27,415 nt of DNA from a virus. A model generated the notes under the pieces. That model searched no databases. It saw only the letters and a program-made list of their open reading frames with translations, and was not told the origin of the DNA. Below, in pieces: positions 1 to 27,415 of this stretch. The translations under genes and the position numbers were made by a program. Within the stretch, counting starts at the first letter, position 1, and each line of letters starts with the position of its first letter. The stretch is taken from IMG/VR virus record IMGVR_UViG_3300010149_000121, positions 1-27,415 of that record; one strand, written 5' to 3'.

Positions 1-5
1 ATCCC

Positions 6-1227: not shown

Positions 1228-1249
1228 AAGAGAGTCAAGGGAACACACC

Positions 1250-1411: not shown

Positions 1412-1425
1412 CGCTCTCCATCCAT

Positions 1426-1431: not shown

Positions 1432-1454
1432 AAACACAACAGCGAGGAACTTTC

Positions 1455-1938: not shown

Positions 1939-1953
1939 ACCTTCAGTTCAATC

Positions 1954-2908: not shown

Positions 2909-3039
2909 AACTTAAGAAGACAACAAAACAATTTACTAATAGTAAAGGTGATAAGTGGGAATGGGAAGAGAATGAACAAACACGTAAGGCAATTCAACAA
3001 CTAGAACAACATGCACCTGATTATGGTGTTGGTAAATGA
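2905..3039 (+). CDS. Very small charged hypothetical protein
   Basis: 44 residues (MKLKKTTKQFTNSKGDKWEWEEN...). The start is in an ATGA overlap with the upstream stop, and the stop is in an ATGA overlap with the next gene. The TKQFTNSKGDKWEWEE pattern resembles small hypothetical proteins in related phages. Highly charged and probably helical in its second half. Confidence 0.6.
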   Translation: MKLKKTTKQFTNSKGDKWEWEENEQTRKAIQQLEQHAPDYGVGK

Positions 3040-8668: not shown

Positions 8669-8818
8669 ATGGCAAAGCTTAATCGATCTCTAATGGGCAA
8701 TTCGTTTATTGAACCAATTCCAAAGAAGAGTCGTCAAGGCAATGGTAAGAACACCAAGTATGCAGCATCGAGTCGGAACAGTGCAAAGAAGCGTTATCGT
8801 GGTCAAGGTAAAGGATGA
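8669..8818 (+). CDS. Small basic conserved cyanophage protein
   Basis: 49 residues (MAKLNRSLMGNSFIEPIPKKS...). The second half, KKSRQGNGKNTKYAASSRNS followed by KKRYRGQGKG, is strongly basic and of a type I have seen repeatedly in T4-like cyanophages at about this length. It could bind nucleic acid or structural proteins; unknown. It has its own sigma70-type promoter, and its stop overlaps the next start (ATGA). Confidence 0.8.
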   Translation: MAKLNRSLMGNSFIEPIPKKSRQGNGKNTKYAASSRNSAKKRYRGQGKG

Positions 8819-9607: not shown

Positions 9608-10003
9608 GTGCCCAATCAACAGTCTTTTAAAGATTTAAAGGTTACTATGAAGCCTCACCCAATTACGGGTGACTTACTAGTAACCAAAGACGATGCATCT
9701 GTTAAACAGTCAGTTGTTAATCTTATATTGACTACTCCTGGAGAAAGATTCTTCGATGATCGGTTAGGTTGTGGTGTTAGCGAATTATTATTTGAACCAC
9801 TTGATTTTGGTACAGCGGGTTTGATCGAAGAAGAAATCAGAACCACTTTGAGGTTGTACGAGTCTAGGGTTGATGTGACAGAATTGTCAGTTGACCCAAA
9901 CTTTGATGATAATGCTTTTGATGTTGAGATAGAGTTCACTATCCGTGGTCGTCAAGACGAACCACCTCAAAACGTCAACTTCCTCTTACAGAGAACCCGA
10001 TGA
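9608..10003 (+). CDS. 25: Baseplate wedge subunit gp25
   Basis: 131 residues of the GPW/gp25 family, a small lysozyme-like-fold protein that forms part of the inner baseplate wedge core with gp6 and gp53 and links it to the sheath. The family signature is clear: TTPGERFFDDRLGCGVSELLFEP (residues about 42-64), IEEEIRTTLRLYESRVDV and FDVEIEFTIRG. The GTG at 9608 is chosen because it follows the late promoter closely and keeps the full N-terminus; an ATG at 9647 would remove 13 residues. The length matches T4 gp25. Overlaps gp6 by ATGA. Confidence 0.95.
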   Translation: MPNQQSFKDLKVTMKPHPITGDLLVTKDDASVKQSVVNLILTTPGERFFDDRLGCGVSELLFEPLDFGTAGLIEEEIRTTLRLYESRVDVTELSVDPNFDDNAFDVEIEFTIRGRQDEPPQNVNFLLQRTR

Positions 10004-11802
10004 AGTATATTCAAGTCAATAATTTAGATTTTGCTGACATCAAGACTGCGCTCAAAGATTACTTAAGAGCACAGACTGATTTTGTCGATTTTGATTTTGA
10101 AGGGTCTGCTTGGAGTAATTTGCTAGATGTACTAGCATATAATACGTATTACACTGCGTTCAACACGAACATGGTGGCTAATGAATTGTTTTTGGAGTCA
10201 GCAACACTCCGTGATAACGTTGTATCTCTTGCGAAACAATTAGGATATAAACCAAAGTCTATTGTTTCTCCGCAAGCAACAGTTAATTTTCAAGTAAATT
10301 TTACAGGAACATACCCAAGTGTCATTACCTTGAAGAAGGGCACGGGATTTGTTACTACATTTGATGATCAGTTATATCGTTTTGTCGTAATTGATGATTA
10401 TAAAGCGGGAGTTATCAACGGTCAAGCAATTTTTGAGAACGTTGTACTCCAAGAAGGAACTTTGATTGAAGAGACTTACACCAAGTCTACGGTATTAAAA
10501 AATCAAAAGTTCATTCTAAAGAACAGCGGTGCGGACACTAGCACACTTCGTGTCAAAGTATTTCCCATCGAGAACTCATCAGAGTTTGCATACTACAATC
10601 AGATTAACAATATTATTGATATTGGAGCATCTGACAAGATCTATTACGTAGATGAAAACGCTGATGAGCAATATCAACTCTTTTTTGGTGATGGTGTAGT
10701 TGGTTCTGCGTTAGAGGACAATAACTACGTTGAGGTATCATACTTAATTTCTGCTGGTGCAGCTGCAAACGGCGCTAGTGTATTTACATTTAGTGGTATA
10801 CTACAGGATAATAACGGTGTTGCGTATCCACTTACCGTAACTAACATCACGACAGTTTCTGCAGCTGATGGTGGTGCAGGTATTGAGAGTATTGATAAGA
10901 TTAAGTTCAATGCCCCCAAACTATATGCCACACAGAACAGAGCAGTTACTGCAATGGATTATGGTGCTATCGTAAGGCAGATTTATCCTGCAGTATCTGA
11001 CATCATTACATATGGTGGTGAAGAGGAGAGATACCCTGAATTTGGTAAGGTCAAGATTGTTATCAAACCTGATAGTGGCGCTACACTCTCTAGTGTAACT
11101 AAAAAGCAAATTATTGCTAGATTGAAAGACTATGCTGTGGCATCAGTCACTCCAGAGATTAAGGATCCATCAATTTTGTATTTGGAGTTAGACAGTAGAG
11201 TCAGCTTCAATACTCGTATTACAAATCAATTCCCTACAGATATTAAATCTAAAGTCACAAATGCTGTAGAAGACTATACTAAACTGTCTGACACCGAGAA
11301 GTTTAACGGTAAGTTTAGATATAGTAAGTATGTTGGTGTGATTGACAATGCTGATCGTTCTATCACCTCTAACACTACAACAGTAATGATGAGGAAGGAT
11401 TTCTATCCACAGATCAATACTACAACATTCTATGAACTTTGTTTCCAGAATGCATTTAAGTTGTCATGTCCTGAAGATGGACCTGTTGTTATGTCAACAG
11501 GATTCAAGGTAACTGCTTATCCTAATGTTGTCGTTTATTTTGAGGACAGGGATGGTAAAATCGTCCTATATAGATTGGATCCTGGTACAGGTGAAAAGAT
11601 TGTCCTGAACGACAATATTGGTGATGTTGATTATGAGGAAGGCGAAATCAAATTATATGATGTAACCATCTTACAGGGAACCTTCTTTGACAACAGAATC
11701 TCGGTTCGAGTGATCCCACGTAACAACGACATTAATGCATCTAGACACATGTATCTAGATTTAGATGTTGCAAACAGCAAGTTCGCGGTATATCCAGAGT
11801 AA
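10000..11802 (+). CDS. 6: Baseplate wedge subunit gp6
   Basis: 600 residues (T4 gp6 is 660). gp6 dimers join the six wedges into a ring around the central hub and control sheath contraction. The N-terminal block is diagnostic: WSNLLDVLAYNTYYTAFNTNMVANE, then FLESATLRDNVVSLAKQLGYKP (residues about 38-90). The middle contains a baseplate J-like region (GGAGIESIDKIKFNAPKLYATQNRAVTAMDYGAIVRQIYP, about 288-330). The start is in an ATGA overlap with gp25, so the two are made in balanced amounts. Complete, with no sign of a frameshift. gp7 begins three bases after its stop. Confidence 0.95.
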   Translation: MKYIQVNNLDFADIKTALKDYLRAQTDFVDFDFEGSAWSNLLDVLAYNTYYTAFNTNMVANELFLESATLRDNVVSLAKQLGYKPKSIVSPQATVNFQVNFTGTYPSVITLKKGTGFVTTFDDQLYRFVVIDDYKAGVINGQAIFENVVLQEGTLIEETYTKSTVLKNQKFILKNSGADTSTLRVKVFPIENSSEFAYYNQINNIIDIGASDKIYYVDENADEQYQLFFGDGVVGSALEDNNYVEVSYLISAGAAANGASVFTFSGILQDNNGVAYPLTVTNITTVSAADGGAGIESIDKIKFNAPKLYATQNRAVTAMDYGAIVRQIYPAVSDIITYGGEEERYPEFGKVKIVIKPDSGATLSSVTKKQIIARLKDYAVASVTPEIKDPSILYLELDSRVSFNTRITNQFPTDIKSKVTNAVEDYTKLSDTEKFNGKFRYSKYVGVIDNADRSITSNTTTVMMRKDFYPQINTTTFYELCFQNAFKLSCPEDGPVVMSTGFKVTAYPNVVVYFEDRDGKIVLYRLDPGTGEKIVLNDNIGDVDYEEGEIKLYDVTILQGTFFDNRISVRVIPRNNDINASRHMYLDLDVANSKFAVYPE

Positions 11803-11805: not shown

Positions 11806-14800
11806 ATGAGTACACAGATTTCGGCTCTAATTGAAGACCAACTTCCTGGGTTTATTGTTTCTGAATACGAAAACTTTTCGAGTATTTTAGAAGCATACTA
11901 TCGACAACAGGAATCAGTCGGTCAACCTCTTGATATCATCAGCAACATTACGAAATATCGTGATGTCGATTTTTATGAGAAAAATTTACTGAAAGAATCT
12001 ACTACAGTTGCTTTGACTGTAAATGCATCCTCCACGACTTTGGTAGTCGCTGATGCTAGTTCATTTCCAGAGAAGAACGGATATATTAGAGTTGGAACAG
12101 AAATCTGTTTCTATAAAGAGAGAACAGCTACAGAATTTTTAGATGTCTCTAGAGGAGTGAGTGGTACAACCATTCTCGGAGACCTGCATAATGAATCCAC
12201 ATTTGTGTCTACATCAGCAGTAGACCACTTGGTTGGTGAAGATGTACATAACTTAAGTCATTTGTTCTTGTATGCCTTTGTAAGGGCATTTGAGCGAGAG
12301 TACCTAGTTAACTTTCCAGAAGCATACTTGAAGGATGATGTAGATAAGAGACTCCTGATCAAGAACATTGGAGATTTTTACAAAACTAAAGGTGGCAACA
12401 AATCTATCAGATTCATCTTCAATACTATTGTATCAAAGAGAGCTGATGATATTCCAACTACATACTTTCCAAAAGATAGCACCGTAAAAGTATCGGAATC
12501 TGATTGGTCTGCTGTATTTGCAATACAAGCAATCGTTTTAAGTGGTGATGCCAATAAATTGATTGGTAAGACTATTATCCAGCAAGAGGATAAGAATTCT
12601 ATTGGATCGTCATATGCATCTGCTAATGTAGAGAATATAATCCAAATTGGTAAAGTAGGAGACTATGGTCTTTATAATTTAATTATCGATCCTGTTTCTG
12701 TAAATGGCGATTTTAACATCCCCCAAAAGACAGTGCTGGACAGGGTTTTGGGGACCTCTCTTACAACTAACGATACAATCACTGTAGACTCTACTTTAGG
12801 TTGGAGTTCCGAAGAAGGGTTTGTACAGATCAATGGCGAGATCATTGAGTATGAAGGAAAGACTGCTAGACAGTTTATTATCAAAGAACGTGGAACTGTC
12901 ACGAGAATTCATAATGTCGGTGACATTGTAACTAGTTACTCTAATGTAAGAAGTGACGATGTTAGTTTGCTTCTATATGGCATTCTAACAAAACTTTCTC
13001 CAGATCAAGTATATCCTTACTCCCAGAAGGGAGATAAGATCCAGATCTCTAAACCTGGATTTGAAACTAGAAATACAATCATTTATGACGAATCAACTAG
13101 ATCTGTAAGGTGGAAAGTAAATACCACTGGTGCTGTTGCTTCGGTTCCTCTTAATCCTGGTGTAGGTCTTCCACTCCAAAAATATTTGGCTGATGTTAGT
13201 GCCGTCTATCAAGATGGTCAGTATTACTATATTGCAACATCTTCATATCCATCCACACCTATTCTTACTGGTCAGGATCAACCCAATCTAGTTGATGCTA
13301 ATCAACTCAAGCTGATACCAAAATCTACCAGTACAACTACTGAAGTATATAAAACGCCATTTAGAGATATTGGTGTATTTGTAGATGGTAGTATTGCTTT
13401 TGGATATAAGAGCGAGGATCAAATTGCATATGGCAACATCCAATCTTACACATTGACCTCCAGAGGTTCTGGATATACAAAACCTCCTTTTGTCCTTATT
13501 AATGGCGAAGAACAACTAGCTTTGTCAACTTTAGTCGGTGATACTGTAAACTCTGTATTTACTCGTCTCAATAAGAATTTCACAGCAGACCCTCTAGTAG
13601 AAATTGTCAGTGGAAGAAATGGTGTAGCAGAAGCTATTGTAACTTCTGGTGAAATTACTAGTATTCGTCTAATTAACGCTGGAGAATATTATTCAGCACC
13701 TCCAGTTGTTATTATTACCGATTTGGCAGGAAAAGGTAGATTTGGAGAATTTAGAGCGACTGTTGATACCAAAGGTAAGATTACTGGATTTGAAAAAGTT
13801 GATGGCGGTAAATTCTACACTCAAGAGAATGTACGAGTAGAAATTGTAGAAGAGGCAAGAAATAATCCTGCTACTGCAACTGCCACAATTTACCGTTGGG
13901 TAAAAGACCGATTTTTTAATAATTCTAATTTCATTGATGATAATGGTGGTCTTGCAATAAAAGACCTCATAGAAAATGAGTTTTACTATGGAGTGGTTGC
14001 AAACCCCAAACGCCTTCGTTTTAGACTAGGGGACAATTTAACGCCAACTCAATTCCAAGAGACTTCTACTTTAACACACTCGCCTATCCTAGGTTATGCC
14101 TATGATGGTAATCCTATTTACGGTCCTTACGGTTTTAGCAACCCGCTATCGAATCAATCCTCTATTGCGAGGATGAATAGTGGATATCAGCTTAAGAATT
14201 CAAGAACTGATGGTCCTGTTGATGCTCCATATGACATGGGCACCTTCGTTGATGACTATGAATGGATTGCTACTGTTGATACAGGTAAGACTCGCCTTGA
14301 TGTTAACAATGGTAGATTCTGCGTCACACCAGAATATCCACAAGGTACATATGCATACTTTGTAACTATTGATGCTAGTAATACTCCTGTATATCCTTAT
14401 ATCCTTGGAGATAACTTTTATTCTTTACCAGTTAGGTCCAACTACGAAAGTAAAGTAACTCAAAGATCTATTCCTACTACATCCGAACGTTTGTTCATTC
14501 CAGGAACGTTGAAGAATGGTTCTGGAGAAGTTGCGTATATTGATACTGTAAGTAAAGGATTTGTTAATACAGTAAGCATTGAAGATTCTCAACCTACATT
14601 CCAAATTGGATCAAGAATATACGTAGATGACAGTGGCACTGGTGGATCTGGTGCTGCTGGCATTGTTGCATCTACATTTGGCAAGACTGTCTCTAGTATT
14701 GAATCTAAAGAAACCAAAGCAGCTTTATTGACATCTCTTTCTAGTTTCTTTGCATTTGAGGGTGATATTATCACTCAAGAGACTACAGGTGCAACTGGTG

Positions 14801-17800
14801 AAATTATTAGAGACATTTCTGAAGAGAATGAAATTGGTGTCAGAAATATCACTGGATCCTTTGAGGCTGGATATGAAATCAATTCTTCTACTCAAGTAAT
14901 CAATTTACTGCTATCTCAAAACAGTTCTTACACTTTAGGAGCAACTCTTGCTTTAGTTCTATTTGAGGATCCAACAACAGAGATTGCCACTGGAGAAATC
15001 CTAAATCAAACTGTTGACCAAAATTCAGTTCGACTAAAGGTTACAAGTGGTGATTTTGCCGATTACCTCGATTATAATGAAGGTGAAGTAATTCTTAAAA
15101 GTTCTGACCTAGGTAATACTGCAGGAACAGAGATTGTAATTATTAATCAGTTGAGTAGAAATATTAATATTACTGATGTTGATGATTCTATTGCTATTCT
15201 AGAAACAACTGAAAATCATGACTTTGGCACTGGAGATATTATTAATATCACAGTAGATCCAGATCCTGCCACTACAGAGACAACTTACTATGTGACGAAG
15301 AAAAAGTTTCAAGAGATCACTTTACTTCCAAATGAATATCGTGCAAAGGTTGATGATACTGGCGTTGGCGAATCTACTGTACTTGGTTTAGGTAAAGACT
15401 ACATTTCTGGAGAGTATACTGATGTCCCTCTTGTATTTGCTAATTCTGCTTTGTCGAGATCTGATGTAGTAGCAGCAAAGGCATCTGTAAGTGTAGACAC
15501 TGCTAATTTTGATAACAGTGGTAATATTGGTAATATTACTATTACTAGTGCTGGTGCAAATTATAAAGCAGACGATATCCTAACAATTGATCCATCTGCT
15601 ATTGCTAAAGTAGATGCAGCTGATTCAGACATCTCCCCGATTCTATCGATGGTGTATTTGAATCAAACAGAAGTTGAGTCTTATGCACAAAAAAGATTTT
15701 TCGTTGCTGAAGCAGATTATCCAACTGTAGTAACAGCACTGGGCGATGTCGGAGGATTCTTCCAGAATGATGCTGGTGGTACTAATCTCATCTATATTTC
15801 TAAAGATGATGACAATTTTGCTTTCACTTACTTTGTTGCCGATACTGAAGGTGAAGACTTAACTACTGATGATACTATCAGTGGTGTTGCAATTACCAGT
15901 GTTGATGTATACAGCCCTCCAGGTAGTCTCAAACCTCAATACAGATTTGAAGATGATCAAGGAGAGCGAAACCCAAATTATGAAATACGTGTAGGATCTA
16001 CTCTTACTTTACAACCAATGCCTGGTCATTCAGTGCATGTTGTATCTGACATAGAGTTGGGACTCAAAGATGATGGTCGTGCTCAATTTACTATCGATTA
16101 TACAGTTGCTGGTGGTGTTACTAACAGTGGATCTGTTACAGATCCTATTGTCTTTGTACCTACAGTTCCTGGTGTATATCAATATGTCTGTGTAACTCAT
16201 CCAGAAGCTCGTGGAACTATCACAGTGTATCCTGCACCAAGTGCTGCTGGTCCACTAATTAACGTTGATTTTGTTGGTTTTGGTGTTGATAGAACAGATG
16301 TAAACGTTACTAATACTTTTGCAGCATCAGTTGATGATCTTGTATCTATTGGTAACGAGATCGTTAAAATTACTGCTGTAGATACAGATAATAAAAATAT
16401 TTCAGTAGCAAGAGCTCAAGAAGGAACTATCAAAGTTAATCATTCTAATAATAAAGATTTAGTATCTTATTTGCCGAATTACAGATTTGCAGCTGGTACA
16501 AGAATTGGAACTGGTGTTAATGCACCAGTAGTTGTTTCTTATGACAATGAAACTAAAAAACTAATTGTCAACTGGGATTACAATGCAACTAGCCCTGTTG
16601 CTTTGACCACAGTATCATCAATTGTTGATACCAGTAATCCACAAAAAATTGTTACTGTAGGTTCTGTAAATGATATTCGTGATAAACTACTATTCTCTAC
16701 AGATAATACAAATTTCCTCACTAATCCTATTGTAGATATTCAGAAGTATTATTTCTACAAGTTTGATGTAAGTCATCCTTCGATGTTGAACTCTTACCTT
16801 GATATCTCAACTAGTCCAAACTTTAATGTCTTTACCGAAGAAAAAGAAGTTGGTTTGACTGAACCTGGTAATGCTGGTGCATTTGTGAGAATTAGACTTG
16901 GATATGGTGCAAACATTGGAGAACAAACAAGAAAAGATGTTAACTTCACAAGTTACTATTATTTCTTGACTTCTTCTACAACTGATACTGAAGGATCTTA
17001 TCTTCGTATTGTTGATGACCCTTTGTCAGGTAGAAAAGAAGTTGCGTACACTACAGACAAAAAAGTTGTCTACAAACTTTCCGATGTTCCCCAATACGAT
17101 GGAACTGGAGATATTAGATATACAGGTAAGTCAGTTGGTAAGATTCATTCTATCAAGCTAGACAATCTTGGATCTGAATATGATAAGTTGCCAATTATTA
17201 AAGGTGTAGTCCCTGCAGATGGATACAAAGCAGTCGTTAATGCTGTCAGGAGTATATCTACTAATAAAATTATTTCAATTGATATTGTCACTCCAGGTCA
17301 AGGATATTCTAAACCAGAAGTTGTTGTTGCTTCTGGTCTGGGAAGTGGTCTCAAAGCAATTGCTGATGTAAAGGATGGTATCATCACTCAAGTCAGAATT
17401 ACCGATCCTGGTAATTATACCACCACACCAAAACTGGAAATTATTGAAACAGACAATAAGTTGTTCTTTGTGTCTGATAATATTGGTCGTCCACAAAACG
17501 TTAATTTTGTAAGAAATGGATCGGGATTCCATAGCGATAGTACGATTAGATCAAATTACTATTCACCTGATGTTTTTATTCTTGATACCTTTGAGTTAGA
17601 CGCATTTAGACCTGGTGAAACTATTGAACAGAAAGTAAATGGTATTATTGTTGCTCAAGGCATAGTTGCTCCAAATGGATGGAGAGTAGGATCTAATATT
17701 CTACGTTTGGAAGATGTTGTCGGTGTTTTCAAAGAAGGACAGACTATCATTGGAAAGAGTAGGAAGAAAACTGCTCGTATCAAGACAATTAGTAGATCTT

Positions 17801-20800
17801 CGTTTATCCCTAACATTGTTACTAGAGAAAAGACAATTGGTAGATTTACTTCCGACAGAGGAAAGGTAAGTTCTAGCAATCAAAGAATTCACGATTCTAA
17901 TTTCTATCAAGATTATTCTTATGTTGTTAGATCTAGAACACCAATCAACCAGTGGCGTGATGTAATTAAAGATACCACACATCCAGCTGGATTCAAGATG
18001 TTTGGTGAAGTCTACGTGGAATCTGAAGGTGTATCTGATATGCCATCTGATCAGAAGGCATTTAAGTCCACCATGTATTTGGTTGGTCCTCCACTTGCAG
18101 TATCCTCTCTATCTACAAAGAGAACTATTCAGCAACAGGTAATTAAAGTAAAAGACTCTAGAGTTATTAGAGGTGAAGGATCAGTTTCTGTATCCGATTT
18201 TGACGAAACTCTTACCAGAGTAAGAGAACTTAAGTTGTCTCCTGCTTTTGACGGTAGATATGATCCACAGACTGGTTTGAAAATTGGTAACAAACAGTTT
18301 ACTATTACTGATGCTGCAACTGGTACTGCATACACACCATACAATGATCAAGAAATTTTAATGACCATTGATGGTATTGCACAAAGACCAGGATATTCTT
18401 TTAAAGTTGTAGGTAACCAACTTTTCTTCTTTGAACCGCCACTTGGTCCAAGAGTTACTGAAGATCAGCTTGTTCCCCCACAGAGTGCATATATTAGAGC
18501 ATTCAAGTTTAGAGAAGATACGGATAATGCACGTTATCTGAAAAATTTAAAAAATATTGCAGATTCGTTCGACGGTAGAACTAGAATCTTTGATTTGAAT
18601 TGGGACGATGGTAGTGTCGTGAAGACACAGGTCAATGAAGACTTGTTTGTGTATCTCGATGGAGTATTACAGCAAGGTTCTTATGAGATCAGAAGATTTT
18701 CGAGTCCAAACAAAACAGATCGTATCGCTTTTGTCAAAGCACCTAAAAACTACAAGGATCTCTATGATTCAGATGCTTTTCCACAAGAACTGCAGAATGA
18801 AACATATTTTTATGGATTTGGTGTAGGTCTATACGAAAGACTTGGTATCGACAAGAGAATAGTTCCTTATAATCAAAATAATCAATACCTAATCTATGAC
18901 TCAAATAATAATGTAAGAACTATTGATAGTACATTATATGCATATGTTTATGTAGATGGTGTTCTCCAACAACAAGATCTGTCATACAAGATCAATGGAG
19001 CTTCAATTACTTTTATGGAACCATTGGAGTATTCAGAACAGGCAGATGGATCTTATACTTGTGCAAGAGTAGATATTATTCGTTTGTATGGTAAGAACTA
19101 TCAATCTACTCTCAATATCTTTAATTATGAACAAGATGCTTTCTATAACAGAGCAACTGTAACTTTTGATGGTGCAGGTACATACGATACCATCTCTTCT
19201 TGGTATGTCTTAAACACTAGTGATAAAACTAGTGTTGTACAAGGAGGTAGGGTTTGGGGTGAACTTATGAGTATCCAAAAGGGAACTGGAGATCAATGGA
19301 TTGCTATATTGAAATCACAAAATATTGATTTTGTTGCTGGCTCTGATGTCACTTTTGATAGATTTGATGGAGATCCTTTGACAATTAGTTTCACAGACTT
19401 CTCCATTGCATATACAACAAATGTTGCTGGAGAACGTATTCTTAATCGTGTGGAAGCAAACTATATTCCTTTCTTGCCTACTAATGATTCTTTTGATAGT
19501 TACGACTACCGTGGCGAGATTCTAAAAGAGCATCCAACTCTCCGTAGAGGAGATAAGATCATGATTGATGGTGAAAGTGAATATCGTAATATTATTAGTT
19601 CTCCACTTTTTGCTAAAACAACTGATTATCGTCCAGGTGGTAATGCTTCTGCTAACTTCTTTGCTAAAGTTGCTGCTTCTGATTATAACGGAGATGTATT
19701 AGGTGAAGGTCTGTCAGTTACAACAACCATTGATACTGGTAAGGTAACCTCTTTGAATTGGAATAGAAGGGAACTAACGTATTTCTTCCAAAATAGTATT
19801 CTTATCAATCCTACTGCCTATAACTATAATAGCCCACCAGTATTGAACTTCATTCCTACGAATGGTGAGGGTGGCGGTGCTAAAGCACAAGTTATAGTAT
19901 ATGGTGGTCAAATCATTGACATCATTTTAGTAGATGGTGGTTCTGGATATACTGCTCCTCCAAGAGTTGTTATTTCTAGAGGATATGATATTCTTCGTGA
20001 AAATAATCATCCAGAGTTTTCTTTAGTTAGAACTATTTTTGGTGGTCAAGGTGAAGGGTTGAATGCAACGATTCAAACTACATCCTCTGTTATTGATCTA
20101 TATCGACGTAACTTGGTTGAGCATGTTGCTGTTATACAATCTCCTAATCCTCTTGGATCTGCGAGATTGATTGGCAGGAGAATGGATTTAGTTACTCCTG
20201 AAATTGGAATGGGATTCCCATTCGAGCAAGATATCATTACACATATTCAATATGTTGTAGCAACACAATCACCAGCTGCTATTGAGCAACCAACTTTCGT
20301 CAGAGTGTTCCTTGAAGCAGAGGATATTGGATTTGAATCATTCCGAGTGGATAAGACCAGATATTTCAATTCTGGTGTTATTGCTTTGGATGAAAATCCA
20401 GTTACTTATCCACAATTCTACACACAAGGTAAATTGGGAGGTACTGTAGCTTCATTTATTGATTACTTGTATCTAGATGTTGGTTATGCAAATGTATCTG
20501 GAATTACTCTAGAGCAACTTGAATTGACATACACACAATTCAATGGTATCAGCGAAGGTGTTGATACATGGATGGAAAATATGACATTAAATAATACATC
20601 CTTGACAACTAATGGAACTCTATTTAATCCTGGAATTCCATCTATTCAAGAGTTGATGTCTTATCTAGATGCACCACTGCTAGCAAATTCAATTGTCATC
20701 TACATTCCAGATACCACTAATTTCCCTGACAGTGGTAAACTACTTGTCGGTAAAGAGCTTGTAACCTACACATCTAAATTATCTGATCGTCTTATTGGTG

Positions 20801-20886
20801 TTACAAGAGGTGTTGACAACACAACAGCAGAAGCACATACTGCTGGTCAGTTCATCAGGACTATCGGTCTAGGGACAACTCTCTAG
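11806..20886 (+). CDS. 7: Giant gp7-like baseplate wedge protein
   Basis: 3026 residues, against about 1030 for T4 gp7. In T4, gp7 starts wedge assembly with gp10 and gp8. Residues 1-260 (NITKYRDVDFYEKN, GDFYKTKGGNKSIRF at about 190, NKLIGKTI) resemble the T4 gp7 C-terminal third. The next matching block, YVVRSRTPINQWRDVI then HPAGF, lies at 2039-2063. The 1,700 or so residues between contain repeats, a YHYH-type segment (758-777) and a cupredoxin-like segment (about 1370-1478). Residues 2184-2410 hold three DGVLQQ-type repeats. One continuous reading frame. Position between gp6 and gp8 supports the gp7 call. No start problem; ATG follows gp6 by three bases. Confidence 0.85.
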   Translation: MSTQISALIEDQLPGFIVSEYENFSSILEAYYRQQESVGQPLDIISNITKYRDVDFYEKNLLKESTTVALTVNASSTTLVVADASSFPEKNGYIRVGTEICFYKERTATEFLDVSRGVSGTTILGDLHNESTFVSTSAVDHLVGEDVHNLSHLFLYAFVRAFEREYLVNFPEAYLKDDVDKRLLIKNIGDFYKTKGGNKSIRFIFNTIVSKRADDIPTTYFPKDSTVKVSESDWSAVFAIQAIVLSGDANKLIGKTIIQQEDKNSIGSSYASANVENIIQIGKVGDYGLYNLIIDPVSVNGDFNIPQKTVLDRVLGTSLTTNDTITVDSTLGWSSEEGFVQINGEIIEYEGKTARQFIIKERGTVTRIHNVGDIVTSYSNVRSDDVSLLLYGILTKLSPDQVYPYSQKGDKIQISKPGFETRNTIIYDESTRSVRWKVNTTGAVASVPLNPGVGLPLQKYLADVSAVYQDGQYYYIATSSYPSTPILTGQDQPNLVDANQLKLIPKSTSTTTEVYKTPFRDIGVFVDGSIAFGYKSEDQIAYGNIQSYTLTSRGSGYTKPPFVLINGEEQLALSTLVGDTVNSVFTRLNKNFTADPLVEIVSGRNGVAEAIVTSGEITSIRLINAGEYYSAPPVVIITDLAGKGRFGEFRATVDTKGKITGFEKVDGGKFYTQENVRVEIVEEARNNPATATATIYRWVKDRFFNNSNFIDDNGGLAIKDLIENEFYYGVVANPKRLRFRLGDNLTPTQFQETSTLTHSPILGYAYDGNPIYGPYGFSNPLSNQSSIARMNSGYQLKNSRTDGPVDAPYDMGTFVDDYEWIATVDTGKTRLDVNNGRFCVTPEYPQGTYAYFVTIDASNTPVYPYILGDNFYSLPVRSNYESKVTQRSIPTTSERLFIPGTLKNGSGEVAYIDTVSKGFVNTVSIEDSQPTFQIGSRIYVDDSGTGGSGAAGIVASTFGKTVSSIESKETKAALLTSLSSFFAFEGDIITQETTGATGEIIRDISEENEIGVRNITGSFEAGYEINSSTQVINLLLSQNSSYTLGATLALVLFEDPTTEIATGEILNQTVDQNSVRLKVTSGDFADYLDYNEGEVILKSSDLGNTAGTEIVIINQLSRNINITDVDDSIAILETTENHDFGTGDIINITVDPDPATTETTYYVTKKKFQEITLLPNEYRAKVDDTGVGESTVLGLGKDYISGEYTDVPLVFANSALSRSDVVAAKASVSVDTANFDNSGNIGNITITSAGANYKADDILTIDPSAIAKVDAADSDISPILSMVYLNQTEVESYAQKRFFVAEADYPTVVTALGDVGGFFQNDAGGTNLIYISKDDDNFAFTYFVADTEGEDLTTDDTISGVAITSVDVYSPPGSLKPQYRFEDDQGERNPNYEIRVGSTLTLQPMPGHSVHVVSDIELGLKDDGRAQFTIDYTVAGGVTNSGSVTDPIVFVPTVPGVYQYVCVTHPEARGTITVYPAPSAAGPLINVDFVGFGVDRTDVNVTNTFAASVDDLVSIGNEIVKITAVDTDNKNISVARAQEGTIKVNHSNNKDLVSYLPNYRFAAGTRIGTGVNAPVVVSYDNETKKLIVNWDYNATSPVALTTVSSIVDTSNPQKIVTVGSVNDIRDKLLFSTDNTNFLTNPIVDIQKYYFYKFDVSHPSMLNSYLDISTSPNFNVFTEEKEVGLTEPGNAGAFVRIRLGYGANIGEQTRKDVNFTSYYYFLTSSTTDTEGSYLRIVDDPLSGRKEVAYTTDKKVVYKLSDVPQYDGTGDIRYTGKSVGKIHSIKLDNLGSEYDKLPIIKGVVPADGYKAVVNAVRSISTNKIISIDIVTPGQGYSKPEVVVASGLGSGLKAIADVKDGIITQVRITDPGNYTTTPKLEIIETDNKLFFVSDNIGRPQNVNFVRNGSGFHSDSTIRSNYYSPDVFILDTFELDAFRPGETIEQKVNGIIVAQGIVAPNGWRVGSNILRLEDVVGVFKEGQTIIGKSRKKTARIKTISRSSFIPNIVTREKTIGRFTSDRGKVSSSNQRIHDSNFYQDYSYVVRSRTPINQWRDVIKDTTHPAGFKMFGEVYVESEGVSDMPSDQKAFKSTMYLVGPPLAVSSLSTKRTIQQQVIKVKDSRVIRGEGSVSVSDFDETLTRVRELKLSPAFDGRYDPQTGLKIGNKQFTITDAATGTAYTPYNDQEILMTIDGIAQRPGYSFKVVGNQLFFFEPPLGPRVTEDQLVPPQSAYIRAFKFREDTDNARYLKNLKNIADSFDGRTRIFDLNWDDGSVVKTQVNEDLFVYLDGVLQQGSYEIRRFSSPNKTDRIAFVKAPKNYKDLYDSDAFPQELQNETYFYGFGVGLYERLGIDKRIVPYNQNNQYLIYDSNNNVRTIDSTLYAYVYVDGVLQQQDLSYKINGASITFMEPLEYSEQADGSYTCARVDIIRLYGKNYQSTLNIFNYEQDAFYNRATVTFDGAGTYDTISSWYVLNTSDKTSVVQGGRVWGELMSIQKGTGDQWIAILKSQNIDFVAGSDVTFDRFDGDPLTISFTDFSIAYTTNVAGERILNRVEANYIPFLPTNDSFDSYDYRGEILKEHPTLRRGDKIMIDGESEYRNIISSPLFAKTTDYRPGGNASANFFAKVAASDYNGDVLGEGLSVTTTIDTGKVTSLNWNRRELTYFFQNSILINPTAYNYNSPPVLNFIPTNGEGGGAKAQVIVYGGQIIDIILVDGGSGYTAPPRVVISRGYDILRENNHPEFSLVRTIFGGQGEGLNATIQTTSSVIDLYRRNLVEHVAVIQSPNPLGSARLIGRRMDLVTPEIGMGFPFEQDIITHIQYVVATQSPAAIEQPTFVRVFLEAEDIGFESFRVDKTRYFNSGVIALDENPVTYPQFYTQGKLGGTVASFIDYLYLDVGYANVSGITLEQLELTYTQFNGISEGVDTWMENMTLNNTSLTTNGTLFNPGIPSIQELMSYLDAPLLANSIVIYIPDTTNFPDSGKLLVGKELVTYTSKLSDRLIGVTRGVDNTTAEAHTAGQFIRTIGLGTTL
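12034..12204 (+). repeat. FP-G-IG-E-Y module, copy 1 in gp7
   Basis: Residues 77-133. Pattern: SSFPEKNGYIRVGTEICFY, then LDVSRGVSGTT and a His. Copies 2-4 follow at residues 324-375, 1498-1553 and 2962-3017. Confidence 0.65.
12775..12930 (+). repeat. FP-G-IG-E-Y module, copy 2 in gp7
   Basis: Residues 324-375: GWSSEEGFVQINGEIIEY, then IKERGTVTRIHNVGDIV. Same order of elements as copy 1. Confidence 0.65.
14077..14136 (+). other. YHYH-type domain signature within gp7
   Basis: Residues 758-777, HSPILGYAYDGNPIYGPYGF, match the YHYH-domain core (GYAxDGxPIYGPYG) of a family known from bacterial secreted proteins and marine phage structural proteins. The surrounding residues (SRTDGPVDAPYDMGTFVDDYEW, then YPQGTYAYFVTID) continue the usual domain. 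Possibly a carbohydrate- or metal-binding surface module; not established. Confidence 0.75.
15913..16239 (+). other. Cupredoxin-like domain within gp7
   Basis: About residues 1370-1478. The order YRF, NPNYEIRVGSTLTL (strand start), GHSVHVVS (His1408/His1411), then FVPTVPGVYQYVCVTHPEARGTITV (Cys1462, His1465) follows a plastocyanin-type fold. The axial Met expected a few residues after the second His is absent (ARG). Confidence 0.6.
16297..16464 (+). repeat. FP-G-IG-E-Y module, copy 3 in gp7
   Basis: Residues 1498-1553: TFAASVDDLVSIGNEIVKI, then ISVARAQEGT and a His, directly after the cupredoxin-like segment. Confidence 0.55.
18355..19032 (+). repeat. Three DGVLQQ-type repeats in gp7
   Basis: Copies begin at residues 2184 (ILMTIDGIAQRPGYSFKVVG), 2279 (DLFVYLDGVLQQGSYEI) and 2376 (TLYAYVYVDGVLQQQDLSYKI). 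Each ends in a strand with F-x-x-P or an equivalent. The LDGVLQ-Y-F-P pattern is common in tail fibre and tail proteins. Confidence 0.65.
20689..20856 (+). repeat. FP-G-IG-E-Y module, copy 4 in gp7
   Basis: Residues 2962-3017, at the very C-terminus: TNFPDSGKLLVGKELVTY, then IGVTRGVDNTTAEAHTAGQFI. It is the copy closest to copy 1. Confidence 0.65.
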
Positions 20887-20941: not shown

Positions 20942-22807
20942 ATGGCTGCTATTATCTCGGAAAAGTTCAGAATTTTTAATGCGAAGCAGTTCCTAGAGTC
21001 TTTAACCGAAGGCGCTAGTGATACTGGTGCCGACCGAAGTCGAATGTACTTCTTTGTCGGCAGACCCCAAGCATGGGACTCGTATCTAGAAGTTTATGCT
21101 ACAGATGGCGGGACTTTTACCGCTGGCAATCAAGTATATGTTGGTGCTGCTTTGGGCAGTGCTACATTCAAGGGCACTATCGCAAAGGTTTGTCCTAATA
21201 GTCTTCTTATTCAATCGGTTGGTCCTCTTCCAACTGCTGCTCCTGTTTTGGGATCAGCACTAAAAGAGTCTGATGGTTCGGCAGATACGGGTGTTACCGC
21301 AACGTCAGGTGTCTACAGATATTCTACAGAGAATGTTCCCCCTGTACCCCTTGACAATCAGACCGAGAAATTCAGCGTTTATGACGACATTATTGCAGCA
21401 AAAAGAATTACTTCTTCTTATGCAAGATCTGTTGTAAGAAGATACAACTGGGACACAGCAAACAATCCCAAGTTTGATATGTGGAAACCAAACTATTTTG
21501 CTACCCCAGCTGGTGGTGGACAAATTGGTGTTTCTACTGCTACGGGTGCAACTGGTATTGGTTCTGCAAAGTTCTATGTAATGAACCAGAACTATGAAGT
21601 ATTCAAGTGTCTTTATAATGGCGAAAGTATCGCTAATCCATCTGGTGTTAACGTAGTTCACGAACCAAAGACTAACCCTTCGGCAGGTCTAGGTACATAT
21701 GCTGCTGGAATCTTCACTGCTCCTGATGCTTCTTACATCTGGAAGTACATGTATACCATGCCTACCGATGATGTACTAGCATTCCTTTCTTCTGACTTCA
21801 TGCCTATCTCGGCAGCAGGAGAAGCAACCAGAGTTGCAACTGAAACAGCTGCTGTTGCTGGTTCTATTAATGTCGCCCTTATCAAAGATGCTGGTACAGG
21901 TCTTACCAACGGCACTTTCTATGCTCCTATCATGGGAGACGGTGCTGGTGGTGTTGTCAAACTAACAGTTACTGGTGGTGCTATTTCTGCTGCAGAACTC
22001 GAAGTACCAGGTTCTGGTTACACTTATGCATCTGTTCCAGTTGTAACTGGTGTTCCTTCTGGAGTCGCTGGTAGCACTGAAGCAATTGGTTTGTTTACGG
22101 ATGCAGCACTTACTGTATCACAAGCAGTAGCAGCAACTTCGGCTCCAGCACTAGAAGTTATTCTTCCTCCTCAAGGTGGTCACGGATCTGACTTTGAAAC
22201 TGAACTTAACACAAAGCGTGTTATGACGAACATTCGTCTCACCTTTGTTGAGAATGCTGGTGACTTCCCTGTAGATAACGACTTCCGTCGTATCGGTATT
22301 ATCAAGGACCCTCTTGAGTACGGTACAACTACCTTCGCTACAGCAGATACTCTTTCTGGTCTAAAGTCAGTTAAATTGACTGGAGCAACTGGAAACTTCA
22401 CTCCTGATGAGATGATCTCACAGACTGTTGCTGGAGGCACTGCAAAGGGCACTGTAGTCTCTTGGACCCTAGATGCTGGTTCTCCTACTCCCACGCCTGG
22501 AACCCCTGGTAGCGGTGTTCTGAAGTACATTCAGAGTCCAGAGTACCACAAAGATGGTAATGAAATTGTGAGAGACTTTGCATCTGATGCTGCAAATGCA
22601 ATCACTGGTGCTTCTTCTGCTTCACAAGGAACAGTTGAAGTTGCCTTGGCAGATGGAACTCAATTGGTGGGTGCTATCTTTACTGATGGTCTTGCATCTC
22701 CAGAGATTGAAAATAACTCGGGAGACCTCATATACATAGAGAACAGAAGACTAATCACTAGAGCAGCTGACCAAATTGAGGACATCAAGTTAGTCATCGA
22801 ATTCTGA
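20942..22807 (+). CDS. 8: Baseplate wedge subunit gp8
   Basis: 621 residues, against 334 in T4. gp8 is a dimeric wedge component bound to gp7 and gp10 on the baseplate periphery. Landmarks resembling T4 gp8 are in order: SEKFRIFNAKQFLESL (N-terminus), MYFFVGRPQAWDS, VVRRYNWDT, YIWKYMYTMPTDD, FRRIGIIKDPLEYG and the C-terminal GDLIYIENRRLITRAADQIEDIKLVIEF. The extra length lies between these blocks and includes a GSGY-type repeat near residue 357 and Gly/Ala/Ser-rich stretches. A double late promoter precedes it. Complete. Confidence 0.92.
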   Translation: MAAIISEKFRIFNAKQFLESLTEGASDTGADRSRMYFFVGRPQAWDSYLEVYATDGGTFTAGNQVYVGAALGSATFKGTIAKVCPNSLLIQSVGPLPTAAPVLGSALKESDGSADTGVTATSGVYRYSTENVPPVPLDNQTEKFSVYDDIIAAKRITSSYARSVVRRYNWDTANNPKFDMWKPNYFATPAGGGQIGVSTATGATGIGSAKFYVMNQNYEVFKCLYNGESIANPSGVNVVHEPKTNPSAGLGTYAAGIFTAPDASYIWKYMYTMPTDDVLAFLSSDFMPISAAGEATRVATETAAVAGSINVALIKDAGTGLTNGTFYAPIMGDGAGGVVKLTVTGGAISAAELEVPGSGYTYASVPVVTGVPSGVAGSTEAIGLFTDAALTVSQAVAATSAPALEVILPPQGGHGSDFETELNTKRVMTNIRLTFVENAGDFPVDNDFRRIGIIKDPLEYGTTTFATADTLSGLKSVKLTGATGNFTPDEMISQTVAGGTAKGTVVSWTLDAGSPTPTPGTPGSGVLKYIQSPEYHKDGNEIVRDFASDAANAITGASSASQGTVEVALADGTQLVGAIFTDGLASPEIENNSGDLIYIENRRLITRAADQIEDIKLVIEF

Positions 22808-22840: not shown

Positions 22841-25800
22841 ATGCCACAGAAGACTAATCTTAAAGCCGCACCATATTTTGACGACTACGATTCTGGGAAC
22901 GACTTCTATAAGGTATTATTCAGACCTTCCTATCCTGTTCAAGGGAGGGAGCTGAATACTACCCAGTCGATCCTACAGAATCAGATTGAAAGTTATGGTA
23001 AATACTCTTTTAAACAGGGCGATCTAGTTGTCCCTGGTGAGGTTGGTCTAAATAAAAAACTTGACTTTGTAAAACTATCGTCTGTTTCTGAAGTCGCTGT
23101 AAGTGTAAATGATGAGATCATTTACCAAAAATATGATATTAATAATCTCGTTGGTCAAAAGATCAATGGATTATCCTCTGGTGTTATTGCACTTGTACAA
23201 GCAATCGTACAAGCATCTGACAATAACGCTGATACTCTTTACGTAAAATATTTAAATGCTGGTGATGGAGGAAACGAAGAAAGGTTCCGTCAAGGAGAAA
23301 CACTCGAAGTTGTCGATGGCGTTAACAGCCCTCTTCTTGTTGTTGGTACTGACGGGTCTGTTCTACCTACTAGCGTTGCAGTAACTGACCCAGACACACA
23401 AGTTACCACATTTGTAGAAAGTGGTGCCATGGGATTTGCTTCTGCTGTGCAAGTAGAAGAAGGTGTATATTTTGTTAATGGATATTTTGTAAGAAATTCT
23501 TCCGATTTAGTTGTTGTTGATGGTTATAGTGACAATCCTTCTGTAAAAGTTGGTTTTAAGGTTACTGAAACTCTAGTAACTCCAGAAGAAGATCCCACAC
23601 TATATGATAATGCATTTGGATCTTCCAACTATGCTGCTCCTGGAGCACATCGTCTAAAAATTAGTTTAAGTCTAGTACGATATTCTTTTGAAGAAACTAC
23701 AGACAAGAATTTTATTCAACTTCTTTCTATTAAGAATGGAGTTATTCAAAAGCAGGTAAGACAAGCTGCATATAATACACTTGAGAATACTCTTGCTAGG
23801 AGAACTTACGATGAGTCTGGTGACTATGTTGTAGATTCTTTTGACTTTGATATCAGAGAGTTTTATCAAAGAGAAGGTAATCGTGGTGTATATGCACCAG
23901 GTGTCAACGGACTTATCGGTCCTAATGGACTGACTGCAACCGAAGCAGCAGACAAGATGGTTGCTACCATTGGACCTGGCAAAGCATATGTTCGTGGTTT
24001 TGAAATTATCAATAAAGAAACCAAGTATATTGACGTTGACAAAGCTAGAGACACACTTTCCAGAGACAATGTAACGATCAAATCTAATGGTCTTGCATCA
24101 TTCACCATCACCAATGTATTCAACACTCTTCCTCTTAATGCCGAGGGTGCTGATCTAACTGCATATCCAACTATCTTCTTAAACTCCACATATAATGATG
24201 GAGTCAATGGTACTAATGATTTAGAGTCTTCCACTAACTACATCCAAACCATCGAAAGAAGAGGTCTTGGATATGGAAAAGATGATGCTATCAAGACTAT
24301 CTACCTACAAGCAGCAATTGATCTAGGTCTTATTGATGAGACAAGTATTGAACCAAATACTCCTTCTAATAAGGCAGATATCAAAACTCTCTACTTTGTT
24401 TCTTCCAGAACTTCTAGTAATGGTGTAGCATCTACAGAATCTGTAAAAGTTCTTTCTTTTGCAAAAGTAACCAGACCAGAAGTTGGGGATGTTAACGCAC
24501 AGTATTTGCAATTAACTGTTCTCGGCAGAAAAGATTTTCTAGATAATCTCTTCCTTGAGTACGATGACAACGTGTCAACTAGAAGAAGATTTCTTTACAA
24601 GTCTTTGGCAGAAGTTCAGCAAGAGATCAATGATGTAGGTTACATTGTTGACTATAGCAATACTATTGTACCTTTGATTGGTGTAGCAAAACCAAAAGAT
24701 GTCAGCTTGGTTGGTAGACCTGATGGATTTAACGCAGACACCGATATTGTTATTTCTCGCGGTAAACTTGCTGATGGATCAGCAATTTACAATGGTAAAT
24801 TTAATCTATCCTATTTCAATCCAGTATTCTTTACTCGTTTGCTTGTAGATTCTACTATTGGCAATGGATTTGCACCTGGTAAATACATCACAGGTTCTAC
24901 CAGTGGTGCCTACGGGGTCGTAGAAGGCAATACAAATGGATTCTTATCTCTTGGTAAGAGTCTATACGTTAAGACGCTCTACGGAACCTTCCTGCCTGGT
25001 GAGACAATCACTAGTGAAGAAGGTGATCTTCTTCGTATTGGACAAGAGAATACTATTTCACACTTTGTTGTTTCAAAGCAAGGAACTGGTTATACAGCTG
25101 GATCTAGAATTTCTATTAACGGCACTCGTTTTGAACTCAAGGATATCAATGTAGGTATTAACGGCGGAACTCTCTACAAGGTAGAAATTCTAAACAGAGA
25201 TGTTACACAGACAGAATATTCTGCACCTCCAACCATTGATATCGAAGGAACTAGCACGATCGTTACTAATATCATTCCTGTTCTATTCAAGAACACAGTT
25301 CTGACTTATACTGCACAGAATGTCAAGTCTCTATATTCAGAGTTTGGATCTTCCAGTAAGTTCTCTGCTGATATTGAAACTCAAGATACACAATTCTCCG
25401 AAACAAAATCTGTAACCCAATACACCTTCAGTGGAACTAAAGGTTACAAATATATTGAGTGTAATGGATTTGGTGCAGATGCATCACTCATGCTCGTCCA
25501 AGGTGACGTTATTCAATTTAATGATGATACTGGTAGACTAAACAAATTTATTGTAGATCTAGTAACTATTCCAAAAGGAACTGATAAGTCTAGAATTTAT
25601 TTCAACAGTGCCCTACCTGATACGGTAACATCAGTAGCTGTCATTAGATTGCGTCCTATTATTACAAATGGAACCACATCTACACTTCTGTTCCCAACTG
25701 GTAGTAAAGAAGTTGGTAGTCTTGTCAAGTCTACAGAAGACACAAAGATCAACTACTACATCAGAAGAGACTTCGTAACTACTGGTAGTGACAATGGTGG

Positions 25801-27415
25801 CAACATCACATTCGCTGCACAACTAGATTTCGGTACACAGAGATTTGTTCCTTTCACCGAAAAAGACTTCTTGATTACTGTTCTAGACAAAGGTGGTTCT
25901 GACCTAGTTGAAACTGGTGATGTTATCTATGTCTCGGATGATTTTGTAAGTATCTTGAATACTACAGATGCTACATCTGGTCTATCTTCTGGTAGTATCA
26001 CACTTACCTTCCCTGGCAACTATTTTGGTAATAATGTAACTAACTTCCCCAAACTGAAGTTGACTGCTACCATTGAAGTTTCTAAAGGTAGACCCAAGCT
26101 AAAGACAGCAATTAAAAACAAGAGAGTTGTCATCACCTCTGCTGGCGATCAGGTATTGCCTATACGTGGTCTTGATTACGATAGTGACAGCAGTGAAGTT
26201 CTATCTTACTCTGATGTATTTAAAGTAAGATACATTTACGAAGGATCTACATCTGCTCCCCCAACAGTTGACGTTAATGGCAATTTGGTTGTTGGTACTG
26301 ATCTGACTGATAGATTTACTTTTGATGATGGACAAAGAGATACATTCTATGATGTGTCTAGAATCGTACTAAAACCTGGTTTCACTCCACCTGTAGGACA
26401 AGTAGTTGTAGCATTTGATTACTTTGAGCATTCTCAAGGTGACTTCTATACAGTTGACTCATATATTCATGAGGCAGGTGTTGTAGCAGATGAGATCCCT
26501 GATTTCAACTCTGTTGTGCATGGTAACTTGAGTTTGAAGAACGTCATTGACTTCAGACCGAAGGTAGATTCTACTGCTATTATCACTGGTTTCCAAGATA
26601 CTTCATTACTCTCACAAACAGAATACATCAACTTTATTGGTGCAGGTGGTTCTGTATCCAGTACACCATCTTCTGCTAGATCTCTACCATATACTATTTC
26701 CTTTACTGAATCACAGTATCTGGATAGAATTGATGGTGTTTTCTTGAATAAGAAGGGTGAGTTCATTATCAAGCAAGGTAATTCATCACTCAACCCAAGC
26801 AAGCCAGAAATTATTGAGGATGGCATTCCTCTCTATTATATCTTTATTCCTGCTTTCACCAAGTCAAGCAAGGATGTAAGAATTACTCCAGTTGACAACC
26901 GTCGTTTCACGATGCGTGACATTGGTAAGCTAGAGAAGCGTATTGAGCGTCTTGAGTATTATACTACTTTGAGTATTCTTGAGCAGCAAGCACTTAACAT
27001 GCAAGTTAAGGATACTCTTGGCATTGATAAAACCAAGAGTGGATTCCTAGTTGATAACTACGAGACTCATGCTGTAGGTAATGTCAAATCTATTGATTAT
27101 CTGTGTTCTATCGATGCACAACAATCTGTATTGAGACCACAGTCCAAAGAGGATAGTTTTGCACTAAAAGAAGTTAATACAAGATCCGATCAAAGAAGAA
27201 TCGCTGGGTATTCTAATTCTAATGGTGTTGTAACACTACCGTTCTCTGATGTTTCTTATGCAAATAATAATTTTGCTACAAAGACTGTAAATCCAAACCC
27301 ATTTGTTGTTCTACAATATGTTGGTGATGCTGCTGTTCATCCCAATATTGATCAGTGGTACAATGACACTGTGGCACCTTTGGTTACAGATAACAATACC
27401 AATTTGTTCTCTGTA
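22841..27415 (+). CDS. DUF4815-type structural protein (partial, open at right edge)
   Basis: 1525 codons from ATG 22841 with no stop before the window ends. The N-terminus, APYFDDYDSGNDFYKVLFRP, then PVQGRELNTTQSILQNQIESYGKY and FKQGDLVVPG (residues about 11-65), is typical of DUF4815 proteins found in phage tail fibres and baseplates. IGPGKAYVRGFEI near residue 377 is a second DUF4815 block. A GTGYTAGSRISING repeat is near residue 750, and a coiled-coil-like stretch LEKRIERLEYYTTLSILEQQ is near residue 1365. Following gp8, the T4 order would suggest gp9/gp10 (tail-fibre connector or pin), but sequence similarity to those is not visible to me. Its true length is unknown. Confidence 0.85.
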   Translation, partial: MPQKTNLKAAPYFDDYDSGNDFYKVLFRPSYPVQGRELNTTQSILQNQIESYGKYSFKQGDLVVPGEVGLNKKLDFVKLSSVSEVAVSVNDEIIYQKYDINNLVGQKINGLSSGVIALVQAIVQASDNNADTLYVKYLNAGDGGNEERFRQGETLEVVDGVNSPLLVVGTDGSVLPTSVAVTDPDTQVTTFVESGAMGFASAVQVEEGVYFVNGYFVRNSSDLVVVDGYSDNPSVKVGFKVTETLVTPEEDPTLYDNAFGSSNYAAPGAHRLKISLSLVRYSFEETTDKNFIQLLSIKNGVIQKQVRQAAYNTLENTLARRTYDESGDYVVDSFDFDIREFYQREGNRGVYAPGVNGLIGPNGLTATEAADKMVATIGPGKAYVRGFEIINKETKYIDVDKARDTLSRDNVTIKSNGLASFTITNVFNTLPLNAEGADLTAYPTIFLNSTYNDGVNGTNDLESSTNYIQTIERRGLGYGKDDAIKTIYLQAAIDLGLIDETSIEPNTPSNKADIKTLYFVSSRTSSNGVASTESVKVLSFAKVTRPEVGDVNAQYLQLTVLGRKDFLDNLFLEYDDNVSTRRRFLYKSLAEVQQEINDVGYIVDYSNTIVPLIGVAKPKDVSLVGRPDGFNADTDIVISRGKLADGSAIYNGKFNLSYFNPVFFTRLLVDSTIGNGFAPGKYITGSTSGAYGVVEGNTNGFLSLGKSLYVKTLYGTFLPGETITSEEGDLLRIGQENTISHFVVSKQGTGYTAGSRISINGTRFELKDINVGINGGTLYKVEILNRDVTQTEYSAPPTIDIEGTSTIVTNIIPVLFKNTVLTYTAQNVKSLYSEFGSSSKFSADIETQDTQFSETKSVTQYTFSGTKGYKYIECNGFGADASLMLVQGDVIQFNDDTGRLNKFIVDLVTIPKGTDKSRIYFNSALPDTVTSVAVIRLRPIITNGTTSTLLFPTGSKEVGSLVKSTEDTKINYYIRRDFVTTGSDNGGNITFAAQLDFGTQRFVPFTEKDFLITVLDKGGSDLVETGDVIYVSDDFVSILNTTDATSGLSSGSITLTFPGNYFGNNVTNFPKLKLTATIEVSKGRPKLKTAIKNKRVVITSAGDQVLPIRGLDYDSDSSEVLSYSDVFKVRYIYEGSTSAPPTVDVNGNLVVGTDLTDRFTFDDGQRDTFYDVSRIVLKPGFTPPVGQVVVAFDYFEHSQGDFYTVDSYIHEAGVVADEIPDFNSVVHGNLSLKNVIDFRPKVDSTAIITGFQDTSLLSQTEYINFIGAGGSVSSTPSSARSLPYTISFTESQYLDRIDGVFLNKKGEFIIKQGNSSLNPSKPEIIEDGIPLYYIFIPAFTKSSKDVRITPVDNRRFTMRDIGKLEKRIERLEYYTTLSILEQQALNMQVKDTLGIDKTKSGFLVDNYETHAVGNVKSIDYLCSIDAQQSVLRPQSKEDSFALKEVNTRSDQRRIAGYSNSNGVVTLPFSDVSYANNNFATKTVNPNPFVVLQYVGDAAVHPNIDQWYNDTVAPLVTDNNTNLFSV

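Follow-up and report, generated by a model that had tools for sequence, protein, structure and literature searches.

The 3,026-residue open reading frame (ORF) between gp6 and gp8 of a T4-like marine cyanophage very likely encodes gp7, the baseplate wedge protein 3, in a form whose ~300-residue core is split by ~1,700 residues. As read from sequence comparison, homology to gp7, the order of the conserved blocks, the site of the insertion, a continuous series of insert sizes among relatives and the repeat content of the insert are all established; the function given below for the insert is a proposal.

Genomic context and domain organization

The source record is a virus fragment of 27,415 bases, referred to here as the window, and its nearest isolate is Synechococcus phage S-CAM1. 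The ORF is single and intact, and sits in a gp25-gp6-gp7-gp8 wedge cluster followed by a VrlC/DUF4815 gene (Table 1). The order gp25-gp6-gp7-gp8-VrlC is common to the window, S-CAM1, P-HM1, S-SM2, Bellamy and HTVC008M. Homologues of the ORF were found at 68 viral-contig loci, many of them full-length and intact, and full-length copies that are 86-100% identical occur in independent contigs, so the ORF is not an assembly artefact. The neighbouring gp8 is also long (334 residues in T4), with the T4 gp8 Pfam model matched as noted in Table 1, and it may carry insertions as gp7 does. Immediately 5′ of gp25, a 217-residue ORF (8815-9468) belongs to the phage ferredoxin family phrog_3704 (E 1e-118).

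Table 1. Features of the window, with residue numbers referring to the 3,026-residue protein.
Feature	Residues	Window position	Strand	Remarks
gp25 wedge subunit (context)		9608..10003	+	
gp6 wedge subunit (context; pairs with gp7 in T4)		10000..11802	+	
gp7-like baseplate wedge protein	1-3026	11806..20886	+	Single intact ORF; ATG 11806, stop 20886; 3,026 aa
N-terminal helix-turn-helix (core-bundle type)	1-65	11806..12000	+	HMM; model helices of low confidence
Small beta-domain within helical part (growth site 1)	66-139	12001..12222	+	
FYxTKG-motif core	140-235	12223..12510	+	Homologous to T4 gp7 ~680-760
Beta-domain, counterpart of T4 domain V	236-310	12511..12735	+	hhalign; pLDDT about 70-93
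Large insertion (growth site 2)	311-2005	12736..17820	+	Without T4 counterpart
GxGYxxPPxVxI beta-repeat array	543-691	13432..13878	+	
YHYH domain (PF14240)	740-870	14023..14415	+	E 5e-27; YHYH replaced by YAYF, HSP and YDG motifs retained
Optional module ending in cupredoxin-like domain	1286-1480	15661..16245	+	
Second GxGY repeat array	1778-1888	17137..17469	+	Similar to gp8 family phrog_438
C-block (IxDSxFYQDYSYVV...W...HPAGFK.FG)	2006-2084	17821..18057	+	Homologous to T4 gp7 862-892
C-terminal tail (growth site 3)	2085-3026	18058..20883	+	Unrelated to T4 domain VI
Dispersed ~70-aa beta-domain, copy 1	68-140	12007..12225	+	
Dispersed ~70-aa beta-domain, other copies		12748-12966; 16273-16491; 20653-20865		16273-16491 weak
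gp8 wedge subunit		20942..22807	+	621 aa; T4 gp8 matched by last ~35 residues only
VrlC/DUF4815 gene		22841..27415	+	Distinct from gp7; extends past window end

The N-terminal helix-turn-helix is common to nearly all homologues, including the compact forms, while the beta-domain at growth site 1 is absent in Yut3, phiM7 and the Desulfovibrio phage. The C-terminal tail (~940 residues) terminates in a further copy of the small beta-domain.

Homology to T4 gp7

Two segments of the protein match T4 gp7 collinearly. Residues ~140-300 align with T4 ~680-814, which comprises the helical core and the beginning of domain V, and residues ~2030-2070 align with T4 862-892. The first segment contains FYKTKGG (residues 191-197) and LIGKTI (~252, LVGQTI in T4 domain V), and the second contains YVVRSRTPINQWRDV...HPAGF (2038-2063). 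Direct BLASTP comparison with T4 gp7 gives weak matches of residues 152-214 with T4 699-757 (E 0.02) and of residues 2037-2063 with T4 862-888. When the protein was divided into 28 tiles of 300 residues and compared profile to profile with full-length T4-family gp7, the pairings of 176-208 with T4 719-751 and of 2037-2067 with T4 862-892 scored 34-35, and the other tiles scored 21.9 or less.

Deeper profiles were built from non-T4-type gp7s, 15 for the N-core and 14 for the C-block, with no T4-type sequence included. Aligned to the T4 family with hhalign, these reach E 8e-13 (N-core) and E 9e-6 (C-block), and the N-core alignment continues into domain V, to T4 ~814. Searched against the whole T4 genome, each profile matches gp7 alone (E 2e-10 and 0.005), and in the genomes of nt-1 (E 5e-12 and 7e-4) and Asswx_1 (E 3e-8 and 4e-4) each gives a single match at the expected place of gp7. 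Within the PDB, the N-core profile is significant only for the gp7 proteins of phage T4 and a T4-like phage of Klebsiella (KP1-type) (E 3.5e-7), while the C-block profile has no significant PDB match, its best match to gp7 being at E 0.56. In the reverse direction, the T4-family HMM places the 3,026-residue ORF first of the 110 ORFs in the window and matches both blocks. The T4 similarity of the two segments exceeds chance, the real T4-family HMM score being reached by 0 of 2,000 shuffles of one segment and 1 of 2,000 of the other.

An alternative is that the ORF encodes an unrelated giant structural or adhesin-like protein between gp6 and gp8, in which the T4-like motifs arose by chance. The direct pairwise similarity to T4 is indeed weak, the Pfam models of T4 gp7 (Gp7_helical, Gp7_5th and Gp7_6th) do not match the protein, and the PHROGs family to which it belongs, phrog_4406, carries the label “virion structural protein”. 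Single-sequence PDB searches with the whole protein or with residues 1-315 return chance matches only, and the T4 match of the C-block spans ~30 residues, with a modest score when large databases are searched by sequence alone. Against a chance origin stand two collinear profile matches that are independent of each other, each the sole match in the T4 genome, an N-core profile with no significant PDB match outside gp7, and compact relatives that connect the families and match gp7 structures. An unrelated protein is therefore extremely unlikely.

The two segments lie ~80-130 residues apart in T4 and ~1,840 residues apart in the window protein, with an insert proper of ~1,700 residues. In the profile-profile tiling, no tile rose above background for T4 gp7 residues 1-640, and T4 domain VI (920-1012) was not detected. 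A first-pass annotation of the window had described an ORF of 3026 residues at 11806-20886 in which two blocks resemble T4 gp7 in the same order, split by about 1,700 residues and with the N-terminal part of T4 gp7 left without a counterpart. The start, stop and length of the ORF, the resemblance and order of the blocks (by BLASTP, tiling, hhalign and T4-genome searches), the spacing and the missing N-terminal ~640 residues all agree with that description, and the profile-profile comparison that it proposed matches both blocks. Its equation of the protein with the “C-terminal third” of T4 gp7 is correct in that T4 ~643-905 is shared; it fails for domain VI, in place of which the window protein has a different tail.

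Predicted structures

A compact relative from metagenomic contigs, L124, was modelled with AlphaFold at middling confidence (371 residues of core plus a 110-residue insert; pLDDT 67). Three PDB matches to this model fall below E 0.001, and all are gp7, from the KP1-type phage, the T4 pre-attachment baseplate and the T4 star baseplate. The TM-scores against these gp7 structures are low (0.18-0.19), so the models support similarity at the level of domains and not of the overall arrangement. In a model of residues 1-310 of the window protein (pLDDT 69, also middling), domain V is confident, for the most part above pLDDT 85, and the helices are poor, which might be what is expected of a bundle that needs its gp6 partners. 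A fold search with this model found nothing significant, the matches being a mixture of ATP-synthase and phage proteins at E 0.007 or worse. Structure prediction, also proposed in the first-pass annotation, thus points to gp7 through the compact relative, while residues 1-310 of the window protein itself gave no significant match.

A continuous series of insert sizes

Viral contigs were scanned successfully with a degenerate DNA pattern built on the C-block motif; scans of the contigs with conserved patterns from broad alignments or from the Desulfovibrio protein gave nothing usable. The N-core lies upstream of the C-block in 138 viral-contig ORFs that have both blocks, and 27 of the 28 ORFs with a C-block only run off the 5′ end of their contig.

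The insert between domain V and the C-block is about 0 residues long in T4-type gp7s, in the metagenomic relative L154, which also has no clear domain V, and in Desulfovibrio phage 7757 (36). Inserts of 110-180 residues occur in L124, L190 and Yut3 (178), and inserts of ~300-440 in Melnitz-2 (314), P10VF (322) and HTVC008M (436). Mid-size inserts are found in phiM7 (731) and S-CRM01 (997), followed by a group of ~1,500-1,700 that includes S-H34 (1,522), S-CREM2 (1,548) and the window phage (~1,700), and by inserts of ~2,100-2,750 in Bellamy, S-SM2, P-HM1 (2,266) and ACG-2014d (2,746). Judged from the aligned sequences, the insertion site is constant across this series, directly after domain V and ahead of the C-block. 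Two other sites also vary. Growth site 1, inside the helical part, holds 0 to 590 residues among relatives (75 in the window, 590 in ACG-2014d), and the C-terminal tail ranges from a few to 3,183 residues. The gp7 of ACG-2014d (L087:1-20454) has 6,817 residues and occupies 20.5 kb of a 179-kb genome (11%); it is among the largest phage proteins that we have come across.

Since the N-terminal ~640 residues and domain VI of T4 gp7 have no counterpart in the window protein, and the compact forms lack such extensions, the sequences suggest that the short core is probably ancestral and that T4 and the cyanophages elaborated it at different places. T4 is thus probably not the ancestral form, and the N-terminal two thirds of its gp7 are probably an addition of its own. 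The first-pass annotation had described the C-terminal third of T4 gp7 as split by inserted residues; this is refined in that the window protein takes its place in a continuous range of insert lengths at a shared position, and in that T4 is not taken as the starting point. A tree of the ~300-residue core did not separate a single expansion from several, with most deep supports at 17-66%.

What fills the insert

Small inserts consist largely of a GxGYxxPPxVxI beta-repeat of ~40 residues, to which the large inserts add a domain of the YHYH fold. The repeat does not occur in T4-type gp7s or in forms that lack an insert. Most small and mid-size inserts hold 1-4 copies (three in Yut3, four in Melnitz-2), and those of ~1,000 residues or more hold 4-13; none were detected in the 322-residue insert of P10VF. 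GxGY-like repeats are also present in gp8 and VrlC, and residues 1777-1955 of the gp7 insert (window 17134-17670) match the cyanophage gp8 family phrog_438 (E 1e-7). These two observations suggest that modules have been exchanged between neighbouring wedge genes and have spread among virion proteins.

The optional module is missing in four relatives (L047, L055, L058 and L060). The cupredoxin-like domain at its end covers residues ~1364-1481 (window 15895-16248) or ~1370-1482. The cupredoxin profile PF00127 scores 15.2 bits here, below its cut-off of 21.2, and the 13 PDB matches, none of them significant, all belong to blue-copper proteins or to copper nitrite reductase. The His and Cys-x2-His ligands are kept in all copies with amicyanin-like spacing, while the axial Met is variable, being present in S-CAM1 and some others and replaced by Ala in the window.

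The YHYH domain scores 95.6 bits against a cut-off of 25 and is found in each gp7 above ~1,900 residues examined. A role as a metal hydrolase associated with the tail has been predicted for YHYH (PMC7824862), and the strength and regular occurrence of the match could be taken to mean that gp7 carries an enzyme, a metal-dependent hydrolase acting on the host surface during tail contraction. Both motif histidines, however, are replaced in all aligned gp7 copies (YAYF, YSYF or YCYF), which leaves the predicted metal site incomplete. On these grounds an enzymatic role is regarded as very improbable.

A related question is whether the insert is the main adhesin of the cyanophage, a receptor-binding or host-specificity region of gp7 under diversifying selection. 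In many phages the equivalent protein is the attachment point for receptor-binding proteins (PMC10811340; PMC10457771), YHYH domains have been placed among host-recognition domains in a survey (PMC7029224), and the optional module and the strongly variable last ~225 residues of the protein would suit such a role. Outside these two regions, conservation among near relatives is about equal in the core and in most of the insert, and at least as high in the YHYH region; this argues against most of the insert being a diversifying adhesin. No carbohydrate-binding family was detected, and the annotation of some of these phages includes separate genes for tail fibres. A role as main adhesin is therefore unlikely. 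Of the “candidate surface-binding domains and repeats” named in the first-pass annotation, the repeats are present as GxGY arrays, and surface binding is weakened by the lost YHYH histidines and by the conservation of that domain. The large decorated exterior platform that it envisaged would be one inferred function of the insert.

Proposed role of the expanded wedge protein

The wedge scaffold is built from a gp7 homologue and two gp6 chains, and it is usually to the gp7 homologue that receptor-binding proteins attach (PMC10811340). In XM1, loops and the C-terminus of a 242-residue gp7 orthologue hold the spikes (PMC10457771), and T4 gp7 contacts gp10 and gp9 through other domains (PMC3004832). 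In each wedge, the ~300-residue core of the window protein (N-terminal helices, FYxTKG core, domain V and C-block) would associate with a pair of gp6 chains and retain the scaffold function of gp7. A permissive point within this core holds ~1,700 residues made up of beta-repeats and beta-domain modules, and the ~940-residue tail is added at the C-terminus. The insert is predicted to loop out to the periphery of the wedge, where it may take structural roles that T4 assigns elsewhere, to the N-terminal gp7 domains with gp10 and gp9, and perhaps anchor tail fibres. The simplest reading is therefore an unchanged core with an insert that would form peripheral structure and perhaps a fibre anchor.

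The T4_gp9_10_N family (PF07880) had no match over the cut-off in S-CAM1, S-SM2, P-HM1 or Bellamy, which fits the loss of the T4 gp7 domains that contact gp10 and gp9. In S-CREM2, gp122 was detected in the virion with 91 unique peptides by mass spectrometry (PMC10665884), and this protein (1,937 residues) has all the gp7 blocks, so in S-CREM2 the expanded gp7 is a real virion component. A bolder proposal, which we consider doubtful, is that gp7 of cyanomyoviruses is a single-chain baseplate periphery whose inserts replace T4 gp10, gp11, gp12 and the N-terminal gp7 domains, building host-surface sensing and the contraction trigger into the wedge scaffold.

Comparison with known systems

One paper states that cyano- and pelagimyophages lack gp7 and have VrlC in its place (PMC7029224), and a comparison from 2010 found gp7 highly divergent among non-cyanophage T4-like genomes (PMC3037559). 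On the sequence evidence, the statement of absence is contradicted here: abundant cyano- and pelagimyophages have gp7. Substitution by VrlC was rejected, as VrlC is a separate gene without gp7 blocks, and the pelagimyophage HTVC008M also has gp7 between gp6 and gp8. In that genome (NC_020484; L207:4983-8033) the protein has the gp7 core blocks, yet its RefSeq product is “head closure Hc2”, an annotation that looks wrong. Among the other records, P-HM1, S-SM2 and Bellamy name the gene gp7 or wedge initiator, S-CRM01 has “gp7-like” and others have “structural protein”.

The split-core architecture seems to be undescribed in the literature searched, which covered papers available without subscription. 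At one permissive site, a conserved scaffold protein of contractile tails has taken in anything from nothing to ~2,700 residues, so the family lends itself, as a natural series, to questions about the role of the baseplate periphery. We know of no high-resolution structure for the baseplate of these ocean phages, and exact domain boundaries are supplied here for structure work on these phages.

The best-characterized relative, T4 gp7 (Straboviridae; PDB 5IV5 and 5HX2), shares the helical/FYxTKG core, domain V, the C-block and the gp6-gp7-gp8 order. In T4 gp7 the C-block follows domain V with no large insert in between, and there are ~640 extra N-terminal residues and a C-terminal domain VI; the window protein is the reverse. 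The annotated cyanophage gp7s or “baseplate wedge initiators” of P-HM1 (4,446 residues), S-SM2 (4,156), Bellamy (4,067) and S-CRM01 (1,454) share family, synteny and the split core with the window protein, and the large ones also have the YHYH domain. They differ in insert length and module set, and their records are silent on the split relative to T4. Compact gp7s, including those of Yut3 (503 residues) and Desulfovibrio phage 7757 (~587) and the metagenomic L124, L190 and L154, have the core blocks in the same order, with 0-180 residues at the site where the window protein has ~1,700. The minimal wedge protein 3 of other contractile systems (XM1 gp17, Milano BW3, pyocin PA0619 and P2 gpI), likened through the literature, is expected to have the same position and role in a (gp6)2-gp7 wedge; in XM1 gp17, of ~240 residues, a flexible loop and the C-terminus bind fibres or spikes.
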